Source: Tessaracoccus sp. OH4464_COT-324 | GTDB taxonomy: Bacteria > Actinomycetota > Actinomycetes > Propionibacteriales > Propionibacteriaceae | Assembly (NCBI RefSeq): GCF_003932855.1 | Contig: NZ_RQYZ01000001.1 | Span: forward strand, 310,001 to 374,000 | Length of the DNA: 64,000 nucleotides | Direction of reading: 5' to 3' | In this document: in pieces, positions 2,733 to 56,583 of the stretch | How positions within the stretch are numbered: the stretch's first letter is position 1 | Layout: each line of letters opens with the position of its first letter | The notes under the pieces: generated by a model | Told to the model about the DNA's origin: nothing | The model's input: only the letters and a program-made list of their open reading frames with translations | Database searches by the model: none | Program-made: the position numbers and the translations under genes

Positions 2733-4514
2733 GTGATCCGCACGCATGACGCCGGAACGCTCCGTATGGAGCACGTCGGCCAGGAAGTCGTTCTCGCTGG
2801 CTGGGTGGCCAAGCGTCGAGACCACGGCGGGGTCGCTTTCGTTGATCTGCGCGACGCCTCGGGCCGAGCCCAGGTGGTGGTGCGCGACGAACTGCTGGAG
2901 GCAACCGGCGCACACGACCTCCGAAACGAGTACTGCATCAAGGTGCGTGGTCGCGTCGAGCAGCGGCCGGAAGGTAACGAAAACCCCGACCTGGCCACCG
3001 GTGAGATCGAGGTGGCGATCGAGGAACTGGAGGTGCTGAACCCGTCGGCGCCGCTACCGTTCCAGATCGACGAGCGGGTGTCCGTCGGAGAAGAGGCCCG
3101 CCTCAAGTACCGGTACCTGGATCTGCGGCGGCCAAAGCCGGGCGCCAACATCCGGTTGCGCTCCAAGGTGAACCAAGCGGCCCGTCGAGTCCTGGAGAAG
3201 CACGACTTCGTCGAGATAGAGACCCCCACGCTGACCCGGTCCACCCCCGAGGGCGCGCGCGACTTCCTGGTGCCCGCCAGGCTCGCCCCCGGCTCCTGGT
3301 ACGCGCTGCCGCAGTCTCCGCAGCTGTTCAAGCAGCTGCTCATGGTGGCTGGGATGGAACGCTACTACCAGATCGCGCGCTGCTACCGGGATGAGGATTT
3401 CCGCGCTGACCGCCAGCCCGAGTTCACCCAGCTCGACATCGAAATGAGCTTCGTGGATCAGGAAGACGTGATGGCGCTGGCCGAGCAGATCCTGGCCGAG
3501 ATCTGGGCGCTGATCGGTGTGGAGCTGAGCACTCCCTTCCGTCGGATCACCTACCTCGAAGCCATGGACCGCTACGGCTCGGACAAGCCGGATCTGCGGT
3601 TCGACCTGGAGATCACCGAGCTCACGCAGTACTTCGCCGATACCAACTTCCGAGTGTTCCAGGCCCCCTACGTGGGAAGCATCGTGATGCCGGGCGGAGG
3701 AAGCCAGCCTAGACGCACCTTCGATGCCTGGCAGGAATGGGCCCGACAGCGCGGAGCGAAGGGCTTGGCCTACATCACCGTCAGCAACGAGGGCGAGCTG
3801 GGTGGCCCCGTGGCGAAGAACCTTTCTGAGAAGGAACTGGCGGGCCTGATGGAGGCCACCGGCGCGCAGCCCGGGGACTGCATCTTCTTCGCCGCCGGCG
3901 CCCGCGCGGCCTCGCAGGCCCTCCTGGGCGCCGCCCGCAACGAGATCGCCGTGCGCACTGGGCTCATCGACAGCAACGCGTGGAGCTTCGTCTGGGTGGT
4001 GGACGCGCCGCTGTTCAAGCCCACCGCCGAAGCCGCGGCGGAGGGCGACGTCGCGCTGGGCGACGGCCAGTGGACCGCGGTGCACCACGCGTTCACCTCG
4101 CCGAAACCGGAATGTCTGGACACGTTCGACACCGATCCCGGTGCCGCCCTCGCCTACGCCTACGACATCGTGTGCAACGGCAACGAAATCGGCGGCGGCT
4201 CCATCCGCATCCACCGCAGGGACATCCAGGAGCGCGTGTTCCGCGTGATGGGCATCGGGCAGGAAGAAGCGCAGGAGAAGTTCGGCTTCCTGCTGGAGGC
4301 CTTCCAATACGGAGCGCCCCCGCACGGCGGCATCGCATTCGGCTGGGACCGAATTGTGAGCCTGCTGAGCGGCGCGGAGTCGATCCGCGACGTCATCGCC
4401 TTCCCGAAGTCGGGAGGCGGCTTCGACCCGCTGACCGCCGCGCCAGCCCCCATCACCGCCGCCCAGCGCAAGGAAGCTGGCGTCGATTTCAAACCGGAGC
4501 CGAAGGAGCGCTGA
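2733..4514 (+). CDS. aspS: Aspartate--tRNA ligase
   Basis: Charges tRNA-Asp with aspartate in the cytoplasm (class II aminoacyl-tRNA synthetase). The 593-residue protein has the bacterial layout: N-terminal OB-fold anticodon domain ([16 protein letters not shown]), catalytic core with motif 1 ([16 protein letters not shown]), motif 2 (the [15 protein letters not shown] stretch), a GAD insertion domain in the middle, and motif 3 ([10 protein letters not shown]) near the C-terminus. GTG at 2733 is chosen over an upstream in-frame ATG at 2691: it fits the family N-terminus and has a ribosome site. It appears to be transcribed alone, closed by the hairpin after 4526. Whether it also charges tRNA-Asn cannot be read from the sequence. 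Confidence 0.96.
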
Positions 4515-4525
4515 GTACCGCTTTC

Positions 4526-4560
4526 GTTGAGGGGCTGCACTGAGTGCGGCCCCTCAACTT
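4526..4560 (+). terminator. Hairpin terminator after aspS
   Basis: GTTGAGGGGC (4526-4535) pairs with GCCCCTCAAC (4549-4558), and the inner GCAC/GTGC extends the stem around a TGA loop. It lies 11 bases after the aspS stop codon and is followed by TT. Confidence 0.8.
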
Positions 4561-4609
4561 CGTTCCCGCCGGCACCACTATTGTGGTGGCCATATCGAGA
4601 GGAGACCGC

Positions 4610-5335
4610 ATGGCCCTGAAAGATGCGTTGAGCTTCCGACGATCCATCCGCCATTATGATGAGGTGCCAGTCGACCCGGGCAGAGTAGAGCAGTGCCTAC
4701 GATTGGCGCAGCTGGCGCCCAGCAGTTCCAACATGCAGTTGTACGAGTTCATCCATGTCGTGGATCCTCATTTGGTGGCCCGTCTTGCTGAGGCCTGCCT
4801 CGGGCAGCGCGGGGCCACAACGGCCAATCAACTCGTGGTATTCGTCACTCGACAGGACTTGTATCGGGTGCATGCGGCGCAAGTGCTCGACTTCGAGCGG
4901 GGAAACATCAGGCGAAACTCGCCCGCCGAAAAGGTGGCCAGACATACCCGGCATCGGGAGATCTACTACGGTCGCTTGATGCCTTTCATCTATGCCCGCG
5001 CGTGGGGACTGCTGGGCCTGGTCCGGAAGGCCGTCGCGGTGTTGGCGAGTCTGCGCAGGCCGATGCTCACCCGCGTCTCCGAGGCGGACATGAGGGTCGT
5101 CGTGCACAAGAGTTGCGCACTCGCGGCTCAGACCTTCCTGCTGGCGATGGCCGAGGAAGGTATAGATACCTGCCCGCTGGAGGGTTTCGACGAGCGTCGA
5201 GTGAAGCGAATCTTGCGGCTTCCGCGCGGTGCCGAGGTGTCGCTGATCGTGTCTTGTGGCATGCGCAAACCTGGCCGTGGATTGTGGGGGGAACGCTACC
5301 GATTGCCGTTTGATCAGGTGTATCGCAGGATCTAG
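4610..5335 (+). CDS. Nitroreductase-family flavoprotein
   Basis: A 241-residue protein of the FMN-dependent nitroreductase superfamily. The N-terminal signature FRRSIRHYDEVPVDP and LAPSSSNMQLYEF (FMN phosphate and ring contacts in the family) are clear; a middle insertion of about 70 residues is rich in Arg and hydrophobic residues, and the C-terminal part (EEGIDTCPLEGFD, then SLIVSCGMR) fits the FMN-binding fold. Members reduce nitro compounds, quinones or flavins with NAD(P)H; the substrate here is unknown. ATG at 4610 has a GAGAGGAGA ribosome site. It is isolated between the aspS terminator and the VanY-like pair. Confidence 0.85.
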   Translation: MALKDALSFRRSIRHYDEVPVDPGRVEQCLRLAQLAPSSSNMQLYEFIHVVDPHLVARLAEACLGQRGATTANQLVVFVTRQDLYRVHAAQVLDFERGNIRRNSPAEKVARHTRHREIYYGRLMPFIYARAWGLLGLVRKAVAVLASLRRPMLTRVSEADMRVVVHKSCALAAQTFLLAMAEEGIDTCPLEGFDERRVKRILRLPRGAEVSLIVSCGMRKPGRGLWGERYRLPFDQVYRRI

Positions 5336-5362
5336 CGCTGATCGGGTGACCCCCTCCTGGGT

Positions 5363-5434
5363 TAGCATCAGGACAAGCGCTCCACCTTCGGGGCGCTCCA
5401 GGGTGCGACCGACGCCCTGGAGGAAGGAATAGCC
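5363..5434 (+). promoter_or_regulatory. Promoter and two-hairpin 5' leader of first VanY-like gene
   Basis: A TAGCAT -10-like box (5363-5368) is followed by two adjacent hairpins: AGCGCTCC/GGGGCGCT (5376-5397) and CCAGGGTG/CGCCCTGG (5398-5420), each 8 bp with one G-U pair. AGGAAGGAA then forms the ribosome site before ATG 5435. The layout matches the leader of the paralogue at 6609-6682, so a shared RNA control is possible. Confidence 0.5.
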
Positions 5435-6481
5435 ATGTCCACCAATGTTTCGGTTCTGCCGAGGTGGCGCAAGGTCCAGCTCATGCTGGTCGCTGTGCTG
5501 CTCGGACTCGCTTCGGGGCTCGTCGGACCGACGGCCCAAGCGGCAATCAGCACCAAGGCGGCGCAGTGGAATCTCGCCGCGATGTCCTATCTCCGCTACG
5601 AGCAGATCGACGGCGCGAACGGCCCGCAGACGAAGGACGCCGTCCGGCGTTTCCAAGCGGACCAGTGCCTCGCGGCTGACGGGGTCGTCGGCCCCAACAC
5701 CGAGGCCAAGCTCAAGTCGGTGATGCGACAGGTCCAGGCCAAGGTCGGGGTGGCCCAAGACGGTCTGGCCGGACCGGCGACCAAGGAGGCGATCAAGCGT
5801 TTCCAAGCCCAGAACGGCCTCACCGCTGACGGGTATGCCGGCCCGGCAACGTTCGCGAAGATGGGCATCCCACGAACGTGTTCGGCCCCGCCGGCGCCTC
5901 CGCCCGGTGGCGGGTCGTCCGGGGTCGTCCAGCCCGTGCTCAGCCCGTCGTCGGGGGTGGCGTGCGCGCCGAATACCCGAGACCTCGGCGTGCACGACGG
6001 CTACTCGAGGGGAAAGAAAATCAGGGTGCGGCTGTGCGCGATTCCTGGTTTCCGCAGCACGAGCTCCGAGAGCACTCCGGGCAGCCCTTACTACATCAAG
6101 AACGCGAACCGCGAGGTGATCGTGAACTCGCGGGTGTCCGGGCCCGTGCTGTCGATGTTCGACGCGGCGCGCAGGGAGGGCCACCTGCTGCGGGCCAACT
6201 CCAGCTTCAGGAGTCACGCCCACCAGTCCGCGTTGTGGGCGGCCAATCCTGATTCCAGGCTGGTGGCTCGCCCCGGGTACTCCGCCCACCAGGCAGGCCT
6301 CGCCATCGACATCTTCGGAATCAAGGGGAAGAGGCCGGGAGCGTCCTGCGCTAACAGGGCACAGGACCCCAAGAATCCGCAGTATCGGTGGCTGCGCAGC
6401 AACGCGCACCGGTTCAGCATCAAGCAGTACGCCGCCGAAGCGTGGCACTGGGACTACTTGCCGCTGAGCAACCGCTGCTAG
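5435..6481 (+). CDS. Secreted peptidoglycan-binding VanY-like peptidase (paralogue A)
   Basis: A 348-residue secreted protein. An N-terminal signal peptide (hydrophobic residues ~16-30, likely cut after PTAQA) is followed by two peptidoglycan_binding_1 repeats (repeated DGxxGPxT signatures, ~40-145), a Pro/Gly linker, and a C-terminal D-alanyl-D-alanine carboxypeptidase (VanY/peptidase M15) domain. The zinc-site motifs are visible: FRSHAHQSAL, SAHQAGLAIDIFG (SxHxxGxAxD) and EAWHWDY. It probably trims peptide stems in the cell wall. The gene immediately downstream is a close paralogue, so this is a tandem duplication. A two-hairpin leader and a hairpin terminator flank it, suggesting separate transcripts. 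The physiological substrate is not known. Confidence 0.88.
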   Translation: MSTNVSVLPRWRKVQLMLVAVLLGLASGLVGPTAQAAISTKAAQWNLAAMSYLRYEQIDGANGPQTKDAVRRFQADQCLAADGVVGPNTEAKLKSVMRQVQAKVGVAQDGLAGPATKEAIKRFQAQNGLTADGYAGPATFAKMGIPRTCSAPPAPPPGGGSSGVVQPVLSPSSGVACAPNTRDLGVHDGYSRGKKIRVRLCAIPGFRSTSSESTPGSPYYIKNANREVIVNSRVSGPVLSMFDAARREGHLLRANSSFRSHAHQSALWAANPDSRLVARPGYSAHQAGLAIDIFGIKGKRPGASCANRAQDPKNPQYRWLRSNAHRFSIKQYAAEAWHWDYLPLSNRC

Positions 6482-51499: not shown

Positions 51500-51538
51500 A
51501 AAAGAGTTGGGGCCGCAGGCTTGTGCCGCGGCCCCAAC
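51500..51538 (-). terminator. Terminator of the roadblock-PAS-PhnD-like operon
   Basis: A perfect 11-bp stem (51506-51516 with 51528-51538); on the minus strand it is followed by TCTTTTC. It lies just beyond the stop codon of the PhnD-like gene. Confidence 0.85.
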
Positions 51539-51552
51539 CTCCGTAGAGAGGA

Positions 51553-52305
51553 TCAGCCCTGTTCCAGGGCTTCCATCAGGTCGATCATGAACTCTGCATC
51601 CTCTTGGCTGAGCCTGTCCCAGCCGTCGGGAGCGCCGATCGCGTCGAGCAGAGATCCGTCGGTGGGGGAGTTGTTGAGCGACTCCAACCACGTCCACAGC
51701 TTTTCGCCTTCCGGAGCGAGCGCGGGGCTCATCAAGAGGCTATGCTTCACGACATAGATCTTGCTCGCCATCAGCACGCGCAAGTCGCGACGAATAAGGC
51801 GGGACAGCTCGTAGTAGGCGTCGGCCAGGAAGAAGCCCAACTCCACTTCGCGATTCAGCAGGGCCTTGGCAACGAGCACCGGGTTGGGCTTGTACTCCAA
51901 GGAGATGCTGTCGCGGTTGAGATCTGCGGGTTCCAGCAGGATGCGGCAAATTCGTTCGACATCGGGCGCATCAGTTGCGGCGACTGTAACCCGTTCACCC
52001 AGCTCCGGCACGCTCTGCGCCGGGTTGTCATTGTTCACGACGATGACCGCCTCGTTCGAGACGGCGGAGGGCACGGCCAGCGGTACATACCCCTTGTCAC
52101 GAACCAACATTGCGGTGTTAGCTGCGTTGGCGAAGACCAAATCGGCCTGTCCCTTGTCGAATGCCTCTTGAAGCTCTGCAAAGTCCGAGTACACCGTCGC
52201 CCGGAAGGGCAAGCCGGTGGCGCGCTGAATCTTCGTATTAAACACGAACCAGTCCGCGAAGTTCTTGGTGTTGACGTCCGGACTGATAGCTAGGTGCAAC
52301 GTCAT
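51553..52305 (-). CDS. PhnD-like periplasmic-binding-fold protein without signal peptide
   Basis: A 250-residue protein of the PhnD/SsuA/transferrin-like substrate-binding superfamily: starts MTLHLAISPDVNTKNF, then LQEAFDKGQADLVFANAANT and VAVNN-type hinge text. Related import proteins have a signal peptide or lipobox; here there is none, and no permease or ATPase gene belongs to the operon. It is therefore probably cytoplasmic and works as a ligand sensor rather than an importer. ATG 52305 has GAGGAG upstream and overlaps the PAS gene by 4 bases, so it is the last gene of a roadblock-PAS-PhnD-like operon. The ligand (phosphonate-like anion or other) is unknown. Confidence 0.85.
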   Translation of the reverse strand: MTLHLAISPDVNTKNFADWFVFNTKIQRATGLPFRATVYSDFAELQEAFDKGQADLVFANAANTAMLVRDKGYVPLAVPSAVSNEAVIVVNNDNPAQSVPELGERVTVAATDAPDVERICRILLEPADLNRDSISLEYKPNPVLVAKALLNREVELGFFLADAYYELSRLIRRDLRVLMASKIYVVKHSLLMSPALAPEGEKLWTWLESLNNSPTDGSLLDAIGAPDGWDRLSQEDAEFMIDLMEALEQG

Positions 52306-52802
52306 CCTTGCTCCTCTTGCGCAAGCATCTGCGCATACAGCGCTGCCATCTCTTCAACTTTCTTCCGGGACGGCTCACGACGCACCGAGGTGTGGCCGAC
52401 GATCTCGCCATTTCGGATCTTGGGGATGATCGTCGCGTAGACCCAATAGAAACCCCCGTCCTTGCGAAGGTTTTTCACATAGCCGCTCCATCGACGACCT
52501 TCTTGCACCGTCTGCCACAGGTCCGCGAAAGCGGCCCTAGGCATGTCCGGGTGACGAAGGATCGAGTGGGGCTGCCCCAGCAGTTCCTCGCGGGAAAAGC
52601 CGCTCATCAGCACGAAGGCCTCGTTGCAGGTCGTGATGATCCCTGCGGGATCGGTCTGCGAAACGATGAGTTCCCCGGCAGGGAATCGAGTCTCGACATC
52701 GGTGGCATAGACAACACGCGAAGTGCCGTCGTAATAATGCAGCCGCGTCTCAGGAGCCTCGCCGACCACGTCGTCGAGAGTCATGTCCTGCAAGTCACTC
52801 AC
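52302..52802 (-). CDS. Stand-alone Aer-type PAS domain protein
   Basis: A 166-residue protein that is almost only one PAS domain (residues ~40-145). It closely resembles the FAD-binding PAS of the aerotaxis receptor Aer: ITTCNEAFVLMSGFSREEL, GQPHSILRHPDMP, FADLWQTVQEGRRWSGYVKN and RKDGGFYWVYATIIP. No HAMP, kinase, GGDEF or chemotaxis signalling domain is attached, so it must signal through partners. The start is GTG 52802, overlapping the roadblock stop (GTGA); ATG 52784 is an alternative. Redox or oxygen sensing by bound FAD is inference from the Aer likeness. Confidence 0.85.
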   Translation of the reverse strand: MSDLQDMTLDDVVGEAPETRLHYYDGTSRVVYATDVETRFPAGELIVSQTDPAGIITTCNEAFVLMSGFSREELLGQPHSILRHPDMPRAAFADLWQTVQEGRRWSGYVKNLRKDGGFYWVYATIIPKIRNGEIVGHTSVRREPSRKKVEEMAALYAQMLAQEEQG

Positions 52803-53167
52803 CTCATAATCTGTGCGATTTGCTTTGCGACCTGCTTCATTTCATACAGCAGGAGCCCAAGCTTGGCATCTTCGTTGGAGTACGCTTCCAACACGCTCTC
52901 CGAGCCGGCCTGGACCAGCATAACGTAGCCGCCGCTGCCCTTCAGCAGCACCTGCTCGAGCGTTCCCCGCTGCAGATCTCCGATGGTACGGGCGCCCATG
53001 GAAAGCGCGGCGGCTCCCATCGCGGCGATCCGATCCTCGTCGACGCCGGGGCCGAGCACGGATGCGAGCGGCAAACCGTCAGTTGTGACGAGTACCGCTC
53101 CTTCTACATCCAGCGTTCCGCTGACAAAAGTCTGCAACAGACGATTGAGCTGTTCGTTCAAAGACAT
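52799..53167 (-). CDS. Roadblock/LC7 domain protein
   Basis: A 122-residue single roadblock/LC7 domain: NRLLQTFVSGTLDVEGAVLV, TTDGLPLASVLGPGVDEDR, MGAAALSMGARTIGDL, and QVLLKGSGGYVMLVQAG. Bacterial roadblock proteins often partner small Ras-like GTPases (MglA/MglB) or sensor components; no GTPase gene is nearby. ATG 53167 has AGAGGAAC upstream. It heads the three-gene operon with PAS and PhnD-like proteins and may act as its scaffold. Confidence 0.87.
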   Translation of the reverse strand: MSLNEQLNRLLQTFVSGTLDVEGAVLVTTDGLPLASVLGPGVDEDRIAAMGAAALSMGARTIGDLQRGTLEQVLLKGSGGYVMLVQAGSESVLEAYSNEDAKLGLLLYEMKQVAKQIAQIMR

Positions 53168-53356: not shown

Positions 53357-54244
53357 CTAGCCAGGCCTCTTTTCCGCCAGCCAGTCAGCAGCAACCCTTC
53401 CCGCGGGAAGGTGCTCATTCACGCTGCGTGCGTTCAGCTGCACCAAGTCCTCGGGAGTCAGCAGCAGGCTCACCTCGTCCACTATGCGAGCAGCGTTCGC
53501 GTCGACATCATCGCTGGCGATCGGCACCAGGTGGCTAGCCAGGAACAGACCTTTGGTATCTTTTATCGACACAAGGTTGTTGGCCGCCAACGATGGGTCT
53601 GCGGTGTAGATGATGGCGAGCTGGATAGCGTCGTCCTTGAGCGCCTTGACCGTCAACGGCCCCCCGCCGTCCTCGATTGGTGAGAAGGCCACCTCAACGC
53701 CGTACACCTCCCGCAGCCCCTTAGGCCCGTTAGGTCGCTGCTCCGCCTCCGAGTTAGCTCCAAGGGTGAGCGCGGTTGGAACCTTCGCCAAATCCTCAAT
53801 GCTCTCGATACCCCACTTGGCCGCGAATTCCTTGGTCACCGTGTAGGAGTCTTGATCAGTAGCGGGCGACTGGGCCAACACTCGAAGCCCTGCTGGGGTG
53901 GCTTCTCGCAACTCGGCATAGACGTCGTCGGCGAGGCGCGATTTCGTCTCGCTACGCCAGTACTGCAGCAACGGTCCGGAATACTCAGGGAACAAGTCAA
54001 TGTCACCTCGCTCGATCTCCGGGAGATAGACCTCCCGCTGCCCGATCCGAAACTGGCGCTCCACCCGGATGCCTTCCTTTTCCAGGGCCTGAGAGTAGAT
54101 CTCCGCGATGATTTCATTGGAGTAGTAATCCTGGGAACCAACAACGATTGCCCCGTCTGAATCCCCCGATTCCAGCGGGTTGCCGCCACAGGCAGCCACC
54201 GCCAGCACGGCGAACACTACCGCTGTCAGACGTCCGGTCTTCAT
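53357..54244 (-). CDS. Osmoprotectant ABC transporter, substrate-binding lipoprotein
   Basis: A 295-residue lipoprotein: the signal ends in LAVAACGG with lipid-bearing Cys. The mature part matches the OpuAC/ProX glycine-betaine/choline family (VVGSQDYYSNEIIAEIYSQAL, EIERGDIDLFPEYSG, then YTADPSLAANNLV). ATG 54244 with GGAGGAGA is chosen; an in-frame ATG 30 bases earlier has no better site. It is the last gene of an ATPase-permease-permease-binding protein operon; the substrate (betaine, choline or proline-betaine) is not certain. Confidence 0.9.
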   Translation of the reverse strand: MKTGRLTAVVFAVLAVAACGGNPLESGDSDGAIVVGSQDYYSNEIIAEIYSQALEKEGIRVERQFRIGQREVYLPEIERGDIDLFPEYSGPLLQYWRSETKSRLADDVYAELREATPAGLRVLAQSPATDQDSYTVTKEFAAKWGIESIEDLAKVPTALTLGANSEAEQRPNGPKGLREVYGVEVAFSPIEDGGGPLTVKALKDDAIQLAIIYTADPSLAANNLVSIKDTKGLFLASHLVPIASDDVDANAARIVDEVSLLLTPEDLVQLNARSVNEHLPAGRVAADWLAEKRPG

Positions 54245-54270
54245 TCTCCTCCAACCTCCATTTCTATGTA

Positions 54271-54936
54271 TCACTTTGCTGGGTCAGCTTTTCTGCGAGC
54301 AAACCGCTGAAGCAGCATCAGACCAAGCTCCATCAGCAGGGCCAGCCCAATCACCAAGAGCGATCCCCCGAGCATTTGCGCGTAGTCGCGCGACTTCAAC
54401 CCGGAGAACAGGTAGCGGCCGAGCCCGACATCGGCCGTGTACGCGGCAAGCGTCGCGGTCGCCACCACTTGGAGGGTTGCGGAGCGCAGTCCACCAATCA
54501 TCACGGGCAAAGCAAGCGGGATCTCCACCCGCCGAACCACTTGCATCGGACTCATGCCAATGGCTTTAGCAGCAGCAGGAACGGCAGGTTCGATAGCGTG
54601 GATTCCGGCGTATGCCCCTGCCAACAGCGAAGGTACTGCAAGCACGATGAGCGCCAAAGCAGGGGCAACCACGCCGATGCCCAGAGCCAAGCCGAAGATG
54701 GTGAGCAGGCCAAGCGTGGGAATCGCGCGTGCCACGCCTGCCACTGCGCCAACTACGCCTGCTCCTCGGCCGGTGTGCCCGATATAGACTCCGACCGGCA
54801 AGGCGAGAAACGCCGCCAGCGCGACGGTGACCAGGCTCAGAGAGAAATGCTCCACCAATCGCTGGGGGATGCTGCCTGAACCGGTCCAGTGGCTCGTGTC
54901 GATCAACCACCGCAAAGCCTCGACGAAAAGAGTCAT
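54271..54936 (-). CDS. Osmoprotectant ABC transporter permease (second)
   Basis: A 221-residue inner-membrane permease with 5-6 membrane segments and the BPD_transp_1 EAA-like loop (AAKAIGMSPMQVVRRVEIPLALP). It fits the OpuB/OpuC permease family. ATG 54936 overlaps the preceding permease by 4 bases (ATGA), so the two partner permeases are translationally coupled. Confidence 0.9.
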   Translation of the reverse strand: MTLFVEALRWLIDTSHWTGSGSIPQRLVEHFSLSLVTVALAAFLALPVGVYIGHTGRGAGVVGAVAGVARAIPTLGLLTIFGLALGIGVVAPALALIVLAVPSLLAGAYAGIHAIEPAVPAAAKAIGMSPMQVVRRVEIPLALPVMIGGLRSATLQVVATATLAAYTADVGLGRYLFSGLKSRDYAQMLGGSLLVIGLALLMELGLMLLQRFARRKADPAK

Positions 54937-55580
54937 GTGCTCACCCGCTTGGCCCGCTTCCACGGGGTCAGCAGCCAACCGACAAGGAGCACCACCGCAT
55001 CAACGATCAAGGCCAACCCCATCGTCGCTGCAATGCCCGTTAGTACCTCCGCGGTGATGCTGCGCTGAAAACCGTCCGTCAACAAAGTGCCCAAACTTGG
55101 AACACCGATGAGCGCTCCGATGGTCACCAAGGAGATCGTCGAGACGGCCACCACGCGAGCCCCTGAGACCAGCACCGGTACCGCAAGAGGCAGATCCACT
55201 CGCCAGAAAACGCTCAACCGCGAGTGACCCACAGCAACCGCAGCATCGTGGACGGCGGAATCCACCGCGGCGAAAGCGTCCGCGGCCGTTCTCACCAAAA
55301 GCGCTACTCCGTAGATGCTCAGCGCAACGATCATGGTGGCCGAGGATCGCAGCGGTATGCCGAGCAACACCGGGATAACTATGAGCAGGGGGAGCGCGGG
55401 CACTGCGTAGAGCAGGGTGGCCGCTCCCAGCACCGGAGCGGCCAGCCGAGGACGACGAAACGCCAAGCGCCCGATCGGCACGGCTATCACAATGCTCAGC
55501 AGGATCGCAGGCAGGCTGAGCAGCAGGTGAGCTGCAGCCAGTTCCACCACCTGCTGCCAATTGGCTCTCAGCCAGTTCAA
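54933..55580 (-). CDS. Osmoprotectant ABC transporter permease (first)
   Basis: A 215-residue permease with about five membrane segments and an EAA loop (DAAVAVGHSRLSVFWRVDLPLAVP). It pairs with the permease downstream to form the transmembrane channel. The start codon is TTG 55580, overlapping the ATPase stop by 4 bases; the protein begins MNWLRANWQQVVEL as expected. Confidence 0.9.
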   Translation of the reverse strand: MNWLRANWQQVVELAAAHLLLSLPAILLSIVIAVPIGRLAFRRPRLAAPVLGAATLLYAVPALPLLIVIPVLLGIPLRSSATMIVALSIYGVALLVRTAADAFAAVDSAVHDAAVAVGHSRLSVFWRVDLPLAVPVLVSGARVVAVSTISLVTIGALIGVPSLGTLLTDGFQRSITAEVLTGIAATMGLALIVDAVVLLVGWLLTPWKRAKRVST

Positions 55581-56386
55581 GTCTTCAACCTTCCGACGGG
55601 TCGGCCCCGCCCGTCTACCGCGAGCAATTCTCCGGCCACTTCTACGGTGGCCAGTGTTCGGTCGATACGATCAACACCCACGAAATCACGGACGAAGTCG
55701 TTGGCCGGGCGAGCAAGAATTTCCGTCGGGGTGCCGTGCTGAGCAACGACCCCCTGCTCGCGCAGCACCACCACCTCATCTCCGAGCCGGAACGCCTCGT
55801 CTATGTCGTGGGTGACGAACAGGATCGTCTTGCCCAGTTCAGCTTGCAGCCTGATCAACTCGTCCTGCAGCTCTCGGCGGACGATCGGGTCAACGGCCCC
55901 GAAGGGCTCGTCCATCAACAGAATCTCGGGTCCACCGGCCAAGGCGCGCGCCACTCCGACGCGTTGCTGTTGGCCGCCGGACAGCTGGCCGGGGTAGCGC
56001 ATACCCAGCTCCGCCTTCAATCCGACCCGCTCCATCAGTTCGAAGGCTGCGGCTCGGGCTTGTCGCTTGGCCATGCCGTTGAGCATGGGAACCGTAGCGA
56101 TGTTGTCCAACACTGTGCGGTGCGGCAGCAGCCCGCTGGCCTGCAGGACGTAGCCGATCGAGCGTCGCAACGCAACGGGATTCTGGCTGCGCACGTCGAT
56201 CCCGTTTATCTCGACCTGGCCCGAGGTGGGTTCAACCATGCGATTTACCATCCTCATCACTGTGGTCTTGCCCGAGCCGGATGAACCAACCAAAACGACC
56301 GTTTTGCGGCAGGGCACCAGGAGGGAAAAGTCGGCTACGGCAACTGAACCCGCATACTCTTTCCGGACTGATTTGAACTCGATCAT
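55577..56386 (-). CDS. Osmoprotectant ABC transporter ATPase
   Basis: A 269-residue ATPase of the OpuAA/ProV type: Walker A GSSGSGKTTVMRM, Q-loop, signature LSGGQQQRVGVARAL, Walker B LLMDEPFGAVD, and the switch His in VTHDIDEAF. Unlike full OpuAA, it has only a short C-terminal extension and no obvious CBS pair. ATG 56386 with GGAGGG is chosen. It heads the operon and is followed by both permeases and the binding lipoprotein. Confidence 0.92.
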   Translation of the reverse strand: MIEFKSVRKEYAGSVAVADFSLLVPCRKTVVLVGSSGSGKTTVMRMVNRMVEPTSGQVEINGIDVRSQNPVALRRSIGYVLQASGLLPHRTVLDNIATVPMLNGMAKRQARAAAFELMERVGLKAELGMRYPGQLSGGQQQRVGVARALAGGPEILLMDEPFGAVDPIVRRELQDELIRLQAELGKTILFVTHDIDEAFRLGDEVVVLREQGVVAQHGTPTEILARPANDFVRDFVGVDRIDRTLATVEVAGELLAVDGRGRPVGRLKT

Positions 56387-56583
56387 GGCCCTCCAGACCG
56401 TTGTCGTGTCCTCCACCGTATCAACTGGCTAGGCAATCGACGTTATGCGCGGCCGAGGAGGTGAAGTCCGAGCCTGGCGGTGGACGAGTCCGGACAGTAT
56501 CTCTTCCGAGTGGAAAGGGCACAGGGCCTAGTCGTTTCTGCGGGAGTGTCCCGCACAACCCGGTCGGAAACAACCAGCTCTGG
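56387..56583. promoter_or_regulatory. Region upstream of osmoprotectant operon / downstream of metY
   Basis: About 197 bases with no gene. A GCGGGA-GTG-TCCCGC hairpin lies near 56540-56555 and may end metY transcription. I searched for a c-di-AMP (ydaO) or other riboswitch pattern for the transporter and did not find one. Confidence 0.35.

Follow-up and report, generated by a model that had tools for sequence, protein, structure and literature searches.

The Group 3 systems of the bacterial small GTPase MglA have been described as consisting of a receiver-like plus wHTH-like protein, MglA and one or two MglB proteins, with DAR in the G5 motif of the GTPase and no lysine in G4 (Wuichet and Sogaard-Andersen 2014, PMC4316618). 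The section of that paper on Group 3 assigns no input to these systems, and a search of its main text gave no mention of PAS, periplasmic or PBP. In the conservons, which are actinobacterial G-protein systems, a stand-alone cytosolic sensor, CvnF, acts as a modulator according to the accessible part of the report (PMC13343842). For FAD-binding PAS sensors, the Aer structure was described as having FAD contacted by H53, R57, W70, N85, R115, T27 and M69 (PMC9668731), and a PAS survey named Trp, His and Asn as FAD determinants (PMC10468136), both as given in the accessible portions of these papers. PtxB carries an STS-H anion-binding motif (PMC5700983, accessible text). By their PDB entries, PhnD/PtxB, AioX, ArrX and XAC2383 are related binding proteins. 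AioX, ArrX and XAC2383 serve in sensing. To our knowledge, the input signals of bacterial Ras-like switches are largely open. In the literature searched, in which subscription journals are little covered, no report was found that joins roadblock, PAS and PhnD-like proteins, an Aer-like PAS and a roadblock protein, or a PhnD-like protein and a Ras-like GTPase; only the CvnF8 study was found to bring MglA, PAS, FAD and GTPase together.

The locus examined here lies on the minus strand of a 64-kb stretch of DNA (the window), which belongs to a genome of 2.76 Mb in 217 contigs. Its first gene (52799..53167) encodes a single-domain roadblock/LC7 protein of the MglB type with 122 amino acids (Pfam Robl_LC7, PF03259, E=5.6e-16; 58.5 bits against a cut-off of 23). 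The second (52302..52802), which starts with GTG, encodes a stand-alone Aer-type PAS protein of 166 amino acids (Pfam PAS_3, E=1.2e-14), and the third (51553..52305) a PhnD-like protein of 250 amino acids with a binding-protein fold (Pfam Phosphonate-bd, PF12974, E=7.7e-29). All three proteins are over Pfam's own cut-offs; in NCBIfam, two have no family over the curated cut-off and the remaining one matches a generic PAS domain only. The genes overlap by four bases at both junctions (52799-52802 between roadblock and PAS, 52302-52305 between PAS and PhnD-like), and an intrinsic-terminator-like hairpin, found as a consensus match only, lies just 3' of the PhnD-like gene on the same strand (51505..51539; 14 pairs, 7-base loop, tail CTTTTC). 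The first-pass annotation had described such a set of three overlapping genes with a shared terminator, and the open reading frame coordinates, Pfam and the terminator search bear this out. The hairpin is weak evidence by itself, since shuffled sequence yields a mean of 1.7 such sites (sd 1.4) against 3 observed in the window. No sigma-70-type promoter match was found. A glycine-betaine/OpuAC-type ABC transporter operon (53357-56416) is located on the same strand 189 bases upstream of the trio, and no terminator-like site was found between the two. With its substrate-binding protein and one permease as queries, no match was obtained at 1e-20 in the 80 distant loci introduced below; its ATPase matched ABC ATPases in seven of them (L027, L044, L048, L056, L062, L069, L090), none belonging to the window's clade. 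The OpuAC-type operon is not common to relatives of the trio.

The PhnD-like gene was found in 11 of 96 genomes searched, the window's own included; ten belong to its genus and one to another genus of the same family. The complete trio is present in the same order in all 11 carriers, with all three frames open, and identity to the window in the eight other carriers aligned is 56-64% for the PhnD-like protein, 70-74% for the PAS protein and 55-67% for the roadblock protein. Its presence is patchy within the genus as well. In a phylum-wide sample, one of 396 genomes, the window's own, passed E<=1e-30, so within Actinomycetota the trio is both rare and patchy.

When species genomes were scanned with the PhnD alignment, 363 confirmed relatives were obtained, from which the best 80 loci, ranked by likeness to the window's PhnD query, were kept for all counts; their genes were found by clustering of open reading frames or by a rule on G+C content by codon position. 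These loci come mostly from Gamma- and Betaproteobacteria, and also from Actinomycetota, Chloroflexota, Acidobacteriota and Verrucomicrobiota (the phylum names cover five phyla, and five of the 80 loci carry no phylum label). In all of the best 80 loci, the PhnD-like gene is directly preceded by an Aer-type PAS gene, and in 67 a roadblock gene lies upstream of the PAS gene. At most 50 bases separate the start of the PhnD-like gene from the end of the PAS gene in 74 of the 77 loci that were measured (the best 80 without L079, L082 and L085), and the median gap is 8 bases. PAS and PhnD-like genes are a fixed pair, and the roadblock gene is the usual third member. Since every one of the 11 carriers has the three genes side by side, and all the best distant loci have the PAS-PhnD pair or the whole trio, their linkage is not due to chance. 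The first-pass annotation had suggested that genomes be searched for the same set and its neighbours, and had taken a lack of conservation elsewhere as evidence against a sensing module; the set recurs well beyond this genome, and a GTPase was found as its neighbour.

Of the best 80 loci, 49 contain this GTPase, which is Ras-like by profile; without exception it lies 1.6 to 3.2 kb ahead of the PhnD-like gene, in the same orientation, and is accompanied by a roadblock gene. The GTPase counts are lower bounds, since 9 of the 80 loci have less than 2.7 kb upstream of PhnD. The operon runs in the order TPR-like protein, larger protein, Ras-like GTPase, roadblock-like protein of about 212 amino acids, roadblock, PAS and PhnD. 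It is complete in L076, from the genetically tractable methanotroph Methylotuvimicrobium buryatense 5G. The roadblock-like protein, a second and divergent one with weak roadblock similarity, occurs in 51 of the best 80 loci (48 together with the GTPase), the larger receiver/wHTH-like protein in 46, and the TPR-like protein, which has weak Pfam matches only, in 44. A model of the larger protein (427 amino acids) had a mean pLDDT of 83.3, and its best Foldseek matches were mostly receiver domains, none of them at E<=0.001; D62 and K100-P101 do not vary across 32 rows, which fits a receiver. For its wHTH-like C-terminus, sub-cut-off Pfam matches were obtained in one member only. The GTPases have DAR in G5 in 19 of 19 aligned sequences and lack the G4 lysine in 18 (the exception, L064, has NK).

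The first-pass annotation had noted that none of the three proteins has an output domain and had overlooked this output: the trio closes a small-GTPase operon in most of the best 80 loci, and there the GTPase is likely its output. The MglA-like GTPase and the MglB-type proteins resemble Group 3 systems in the distant loci only, a likeness judged by the G4/G5 motifs and gene content; the putative receiver-like N-terminus of the larger protein would agree with it. Unlike Group 3 MglA systems as described in the main text of that paper, these distant operons also carry an Aer-type PAS and a PhnD-like protein predicted to be cytoplasmic. The window's trio is not classed as a Group 3 system, because no such GTPase was found in its own genome. 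With the conservons (CvnA-D) and CvnF, as far as the accessible part of the report describes them (PMC13343842), the arrangement shares an MglB-type roadblock, a small GTPase and a sensor-domain protein that stands alone in the cytosol; unlike them, the window's module is without histidine kinase, CvnC and CvnD, and in place of a GAF protein it has an Aer-type PAS, partnered by a PhnD-like protein, as its sensor.

Further genes occur in some of these operons. A protoglobin-type gene is part of the operon in six of the best 80 loci, before the PAS gene in L037, L046, L070, L080 and L086 and after the PhnD-like gene in L078, and Pfam confirmed it in three of three tested. In the acidobacterial locus L028 (Thermoanaerobaculia, 3236-6339), the order is ParA/MinD-like ATPase, roadblock-like protein (9 bits), roadblock, PAS and PhnD; the ParA/MinD-type ATPase and the very weakly roadblock-like protein occupy the usual places of the GTPase and its partner. 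Bactofilin-cluster genes lie nearby in 10 of the best 80 loci (L031, L041, L051, L052, L057, L058, L059, L061, L068 and L081; Pfam was checked in one), with Sphaerotilus, Leptothrix and Thiothrix among the hosts.

When the PAS alignment was compared with all solved structures, E. coli Aer came first (8dik, E=1.5e-42; 31cj, E=2.9e-41), followed by MmoS (3ewk, 5.4e-31) and NifL (2gj3, 3.8e-14). With the Aer residue numbering transferred to the alignment by hand, the positions matching H53, R57, W70, N85 and R115 are kept in 39, 40, 40, 40 and 40 of 40 aligned rows, respectively. The position of M69, another FAD contact, is mostly occupied by Leu (33 of 40 rows), and the Gly of the crystallised stabilised Aer variant S28G is native in all 40. 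The motifs RHPDMP and GRRWSGYVKN, from which a close relation to the FAD-binding PAS of Aer had been claimed, are both present in the window's protein, and the relation itself is upheld by the sequence comparison with solved structures. It is likely, from these residues, that the PAS protein of the trio binds FAD, and it is a probable flavin redox sensor. It shares the PAS fold and the Aer contacts with the FAD-PAS sensors Aer, MmoS and NifL (PMC9668731, PMC10468136, accessible portions); unlike these, it is a lone PAS to which no HAMP, kinase or chemoreceptor domain is joined. In Marinicella gelatinilytica, a second Aer-type PAS gene was observed directly 3' of the PhnD-like gene (L079:10828-11307).

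The PhnD-like protein has the PtxB/PhnD fold, as indicated by matches to PDB entries. In none of the 77 measured loci could it begin at least 25 residues ahead of the SPD motif unless its gene overlapped the PAS gene by more than 20 bases. There is no room for a signal peptide in these loci, as the first-pass annotation had predicted for the window, and the protein is therefore predicted to be cytoplasmic. At the place of STS, 56 of 58 PhnD-like rows have P and 54 have D, within a conserved TDxPD stretch, and near the place of the His, N, S or T is found in 56 of 58 rows, the STS-H positions having been located by profile alignment. The phosphonate-type STS-H anion motif is accordingly absent, so that phosphorus, under whose shifts the first-pass annotation had suggested profiling expression, is left unsupported as the signal and this part of the earlier proposal is weakened. 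In contrast to the PhnD/PtxB group, the trio protein is thus predicted to be cytoplasmic, is encoded next to a PAS and is without the STS-H motif.

The same data bear on the view that the trio is a phosphonate or phosphite sensor or a transporter part, with the PhnD-like protein binding reduced phosphorus compounds. The PF12974 match and the PtxB/PhnD fold speak for this view, as does a same-strand ABC permease and ATPase pair located some 150 bases upstream of PAS-PhnD in L056, L062 and L090. It is opposed by the lack of space for a signal peptide, by the replacement of STS-H with TDxPD and N/S/T, and by the neighbourhoods, as clustering of open reading frames revealed no transporter family among the widely common neighbours of the best 80 loci; we regard it as exceedingly improbable. 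A role of the PhnD-like protein as a transporter component was rejected on the grounds that a signal peptide appears impossible and that no transporter family is common to the loci, with L056, L062 and L090 set apart. The first-pass annotation had held that finding the protein outside the cell as part of a transporter would speak against its proposal; nothing of the kind was found for the window, while in these three loci a link to the ABC pair is possible.

Several side observations concern further PhnD-like genes and their neighbours. An extra PhnD-like protein is encoded in a Halothiobacillus locus (L040:8349-9080, Pfam E=1.3e-21), where its gene is flanked by those for the second roadblock-like protein and the roadblock protein, and PhnD-like frames on the minus strand are found beside the Sedimenticola loci L053 and L075. 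In an actinomycete MAG, a 158-codon frame without a Pfam match lies directly 3' of PhnD (L042:6783-7256). A STAS domain fused to a PhnD-like domain was observed on a Sphaerotilus sulfidivorans plasmid (L134:6383-7705, NZ_CP035710.1), and the gene immediately before it encodes a SpoIIE phosphatase that also has PilJ and PAS domains. This fusion possibly represents a partner-switching use of PhnD-like domains. A plasmid search with one distant PhnD query gave a single weak relative.

In 13 of the best 80 loci, a PAS-PhnD pair is present and a neighbouring roadblock gene was not detected; hence, the roadblock gene is not strictly required in cis. Among the 13 are L056, L062 and L090, whose hosts are tubeworm symbionts and in which genes for an ABC permease and a TOBE-bearing ATPase lie directly upstream of PAS-PhnD (L056:7611-9352; also L062 and L090); by eye, the ATPase looks like a molybdate-type one. 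For the Thiotrichaceae and Anaerolineae pairs, no shared partner was found. As the symbiont, Thiotrichaceae and Anaerolineae pairs stand without roadblock proteins, PAS-PhnD can be used apart from them. One may go further and suppose that the functional sensor consists of the PAS and PhnD-like proteins only, that roadblock and GTPase are frequent neighbours separable from it, and that in the window's family the complex regulates enzymes or transcription without an NTPase switch. PAS-PhnD is indeed the sole invariant pair, and the STAS fusion after the SpoIIE phosphatase gene indicates that other pathways are possible. Against a separable roadblock, the gene is retained in the large majority of the 80 loci and in each of the 12 nearest to the window (L013-L024), and carriers of the trio always hold a second roadblock gene as well. 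This explanation is considered possible, though rather unlikely.

In the window's family, no GTPase came to light. A Group 3-like GTPase profile gave no match at E<=0.01 in any of the 11 carriers or of 39 genomes of the genus, a result that rests on profiles, so that a divergent switch could be missed, and for which in some genomes at most 36 candidates were scored, including carrier G002 (36 of 37). The profile was positive in 6 of the 96 genomes, one of them from a family member that does not carry the trio. In the window's own genome, the Ras family (PF00071) matched only Der and a 938-codon frame, which is probably a translation factor. Beside the trio, neither a GTPase nor a receiver-like protein nor a second roadblock-like protein was found in the window's clade.

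These absences, together with the patchy presence of the trio within the genus, would agree with a decaying remnant of a GTPase operon that has no present function in Propionibacteriaceae. Decay of this kind is highly improbable in view of the three frames open in every carrier, the fixed gene order, the 70-74% identity of the PAS protein in the eight others aligned and the intact FAD contacts.

A second roadblock gene is found elsewhere in the genome in 11 of 11 carriers versus 4 of 46 non-carriers (57 family genomes), an association with Fisher p=7.4e-9 that ignores kinship, the carriers being related and only one of the 11 lying outside the genus. The searches were run at cut-offs of 0.01 and 0.001, and all counted matches were below 1e-14; by Pfam, exactly two roadblock genes are present in each of seven trio genomes tested. 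The second locus was read in 7 of the 11 carriers (G000, G002, G004, G005, G006, G017 and G044), and the ten such loci compared include three from non-carriers (G001, G013 and G019). At the second locus (for example, L107:6355-9068 and L104:4528-8462; also L105, L108 and L125), divergently oriented genes for OmpA-type and coiled-coil proteins lie nearby, and where this was measured both proteins have a hydrophobic stretch at the N-terminus. A doubled ABC ATPase is present in L104 and L107, and the ABC-like genes near this locus are of mixed families, that of L105 being a cobalt-type transporter. The envelope proteins recall the neighbourhoods of Group 1 Rup GTPases in the accessible text of PMC4316618; no GTPase was seen at the second locus.

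A protoglobin-like gene follows the second roadblock gene in 8 of the 10 loci, and in 5 of the 7 carriers read. Its Pfam match is strong in L107, L108 and L125 and under the cut-off in L105. In a genome-wide search of eight carriers, the protoglobin match was strong in G017, marginally over the cut-off in G002 and G004, and under it in G005; none was found in G000, G006, G009 and G023, and protoglobin is absent from the window's own genome. Because roadblock, globin, PAS and PhnD genes share operons elsewhere, the trio and the second roadblock locus can be read as parts of one dispersed pathway, a reading that we infer from their co-occurrence.

Concatenated PAS and PhnD sequences were used for a tree, in which the window's clade (12 rows, SH-aLRT 100) clusters with two loci, one from Acidobacteriota and one from Verrucomicrobiota (SH-aLRT 99), and is set apart from the loci that bear a GTPase. 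Separate branches are formed by an Acidimicrobiia group and by one further actinomycete MAG. The tree was built by a quick method, with SH-aLRT support only, a midpoint root and L023 left out for its partial PhnD match. A simple recent transfer from Proteobacteria was rejected, as the window's clade joins the Acidobacteriota and Verrucomicrobiota loci and does not lie inside Proteobacteria. Transfer had been thought possible from the mainly proteobacterial occurrence of Aer-like PAS domains; the patchy distribution is in keeping with it, and several transfers or losses of the trio are likely, whereas a recent proteobacterial source is not supported by the tree.

Taken together, we somewhat favour the explanation that the trio works in the cytoplasm as an input module, for redox state and a ligand, of roadblock-controlled switches, and that the window holds a form of it without a GTPase. 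The three proteins may form a complex, as the first-pass annotation had proposed. The FAD-bearing PAS would read the redox or respiratory state, with the PhnD-like protein, encoded next to it throughout, as its partner, which may open and close on a cytoplasmic ligand or serve as a transducing body. The pair would then act on the roadblock protein, and this in turn would alter the nucleotide state of a switch NTPase, which would be the GTPase in most distant loci and for which the ParA/MinD-like ATPase may stand in at the acidobacterial locus. An accessory-sensor role is plausible because a stand-alone cytosolic sensor modulates the Cvn8 G-protein cascade (PMC13343842, accessible part). Since no GTPase was found in carriers of the window's family, the module must there act, through its roadblock protein, on something encoded elsewhere, for which the second roadblock locus with its OmpA-type and coiled-coil membrane proteins, and sometimes a protoglobin, would be the best candidate. 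A more specific version is put forward tentatively and is doubtful: in Propionibacteriaceae, the flavin PAS, the binding protein and, in some carriers, a protoglobin would feed redox, ligand and oxygen inputs into the two roadblock proteins, perhaps as a heterodimer, and these would control an envelope machine of the OmpA-type and coiled-coil membrane proteins without any GTPase.

The finding is wider than the new sensing module first proposed, being a variant of roadblock/small-GTPase signalling of which the window holds a GTPase-less form. If the favoured explanation is true, a conserved FAD-PAS together with a cytoplasmic binding protein, and in some cases a globin, would mean that such switches take the redox or respiratory state as their input, and the window's family would show roadblock proteins working without a GTPase.
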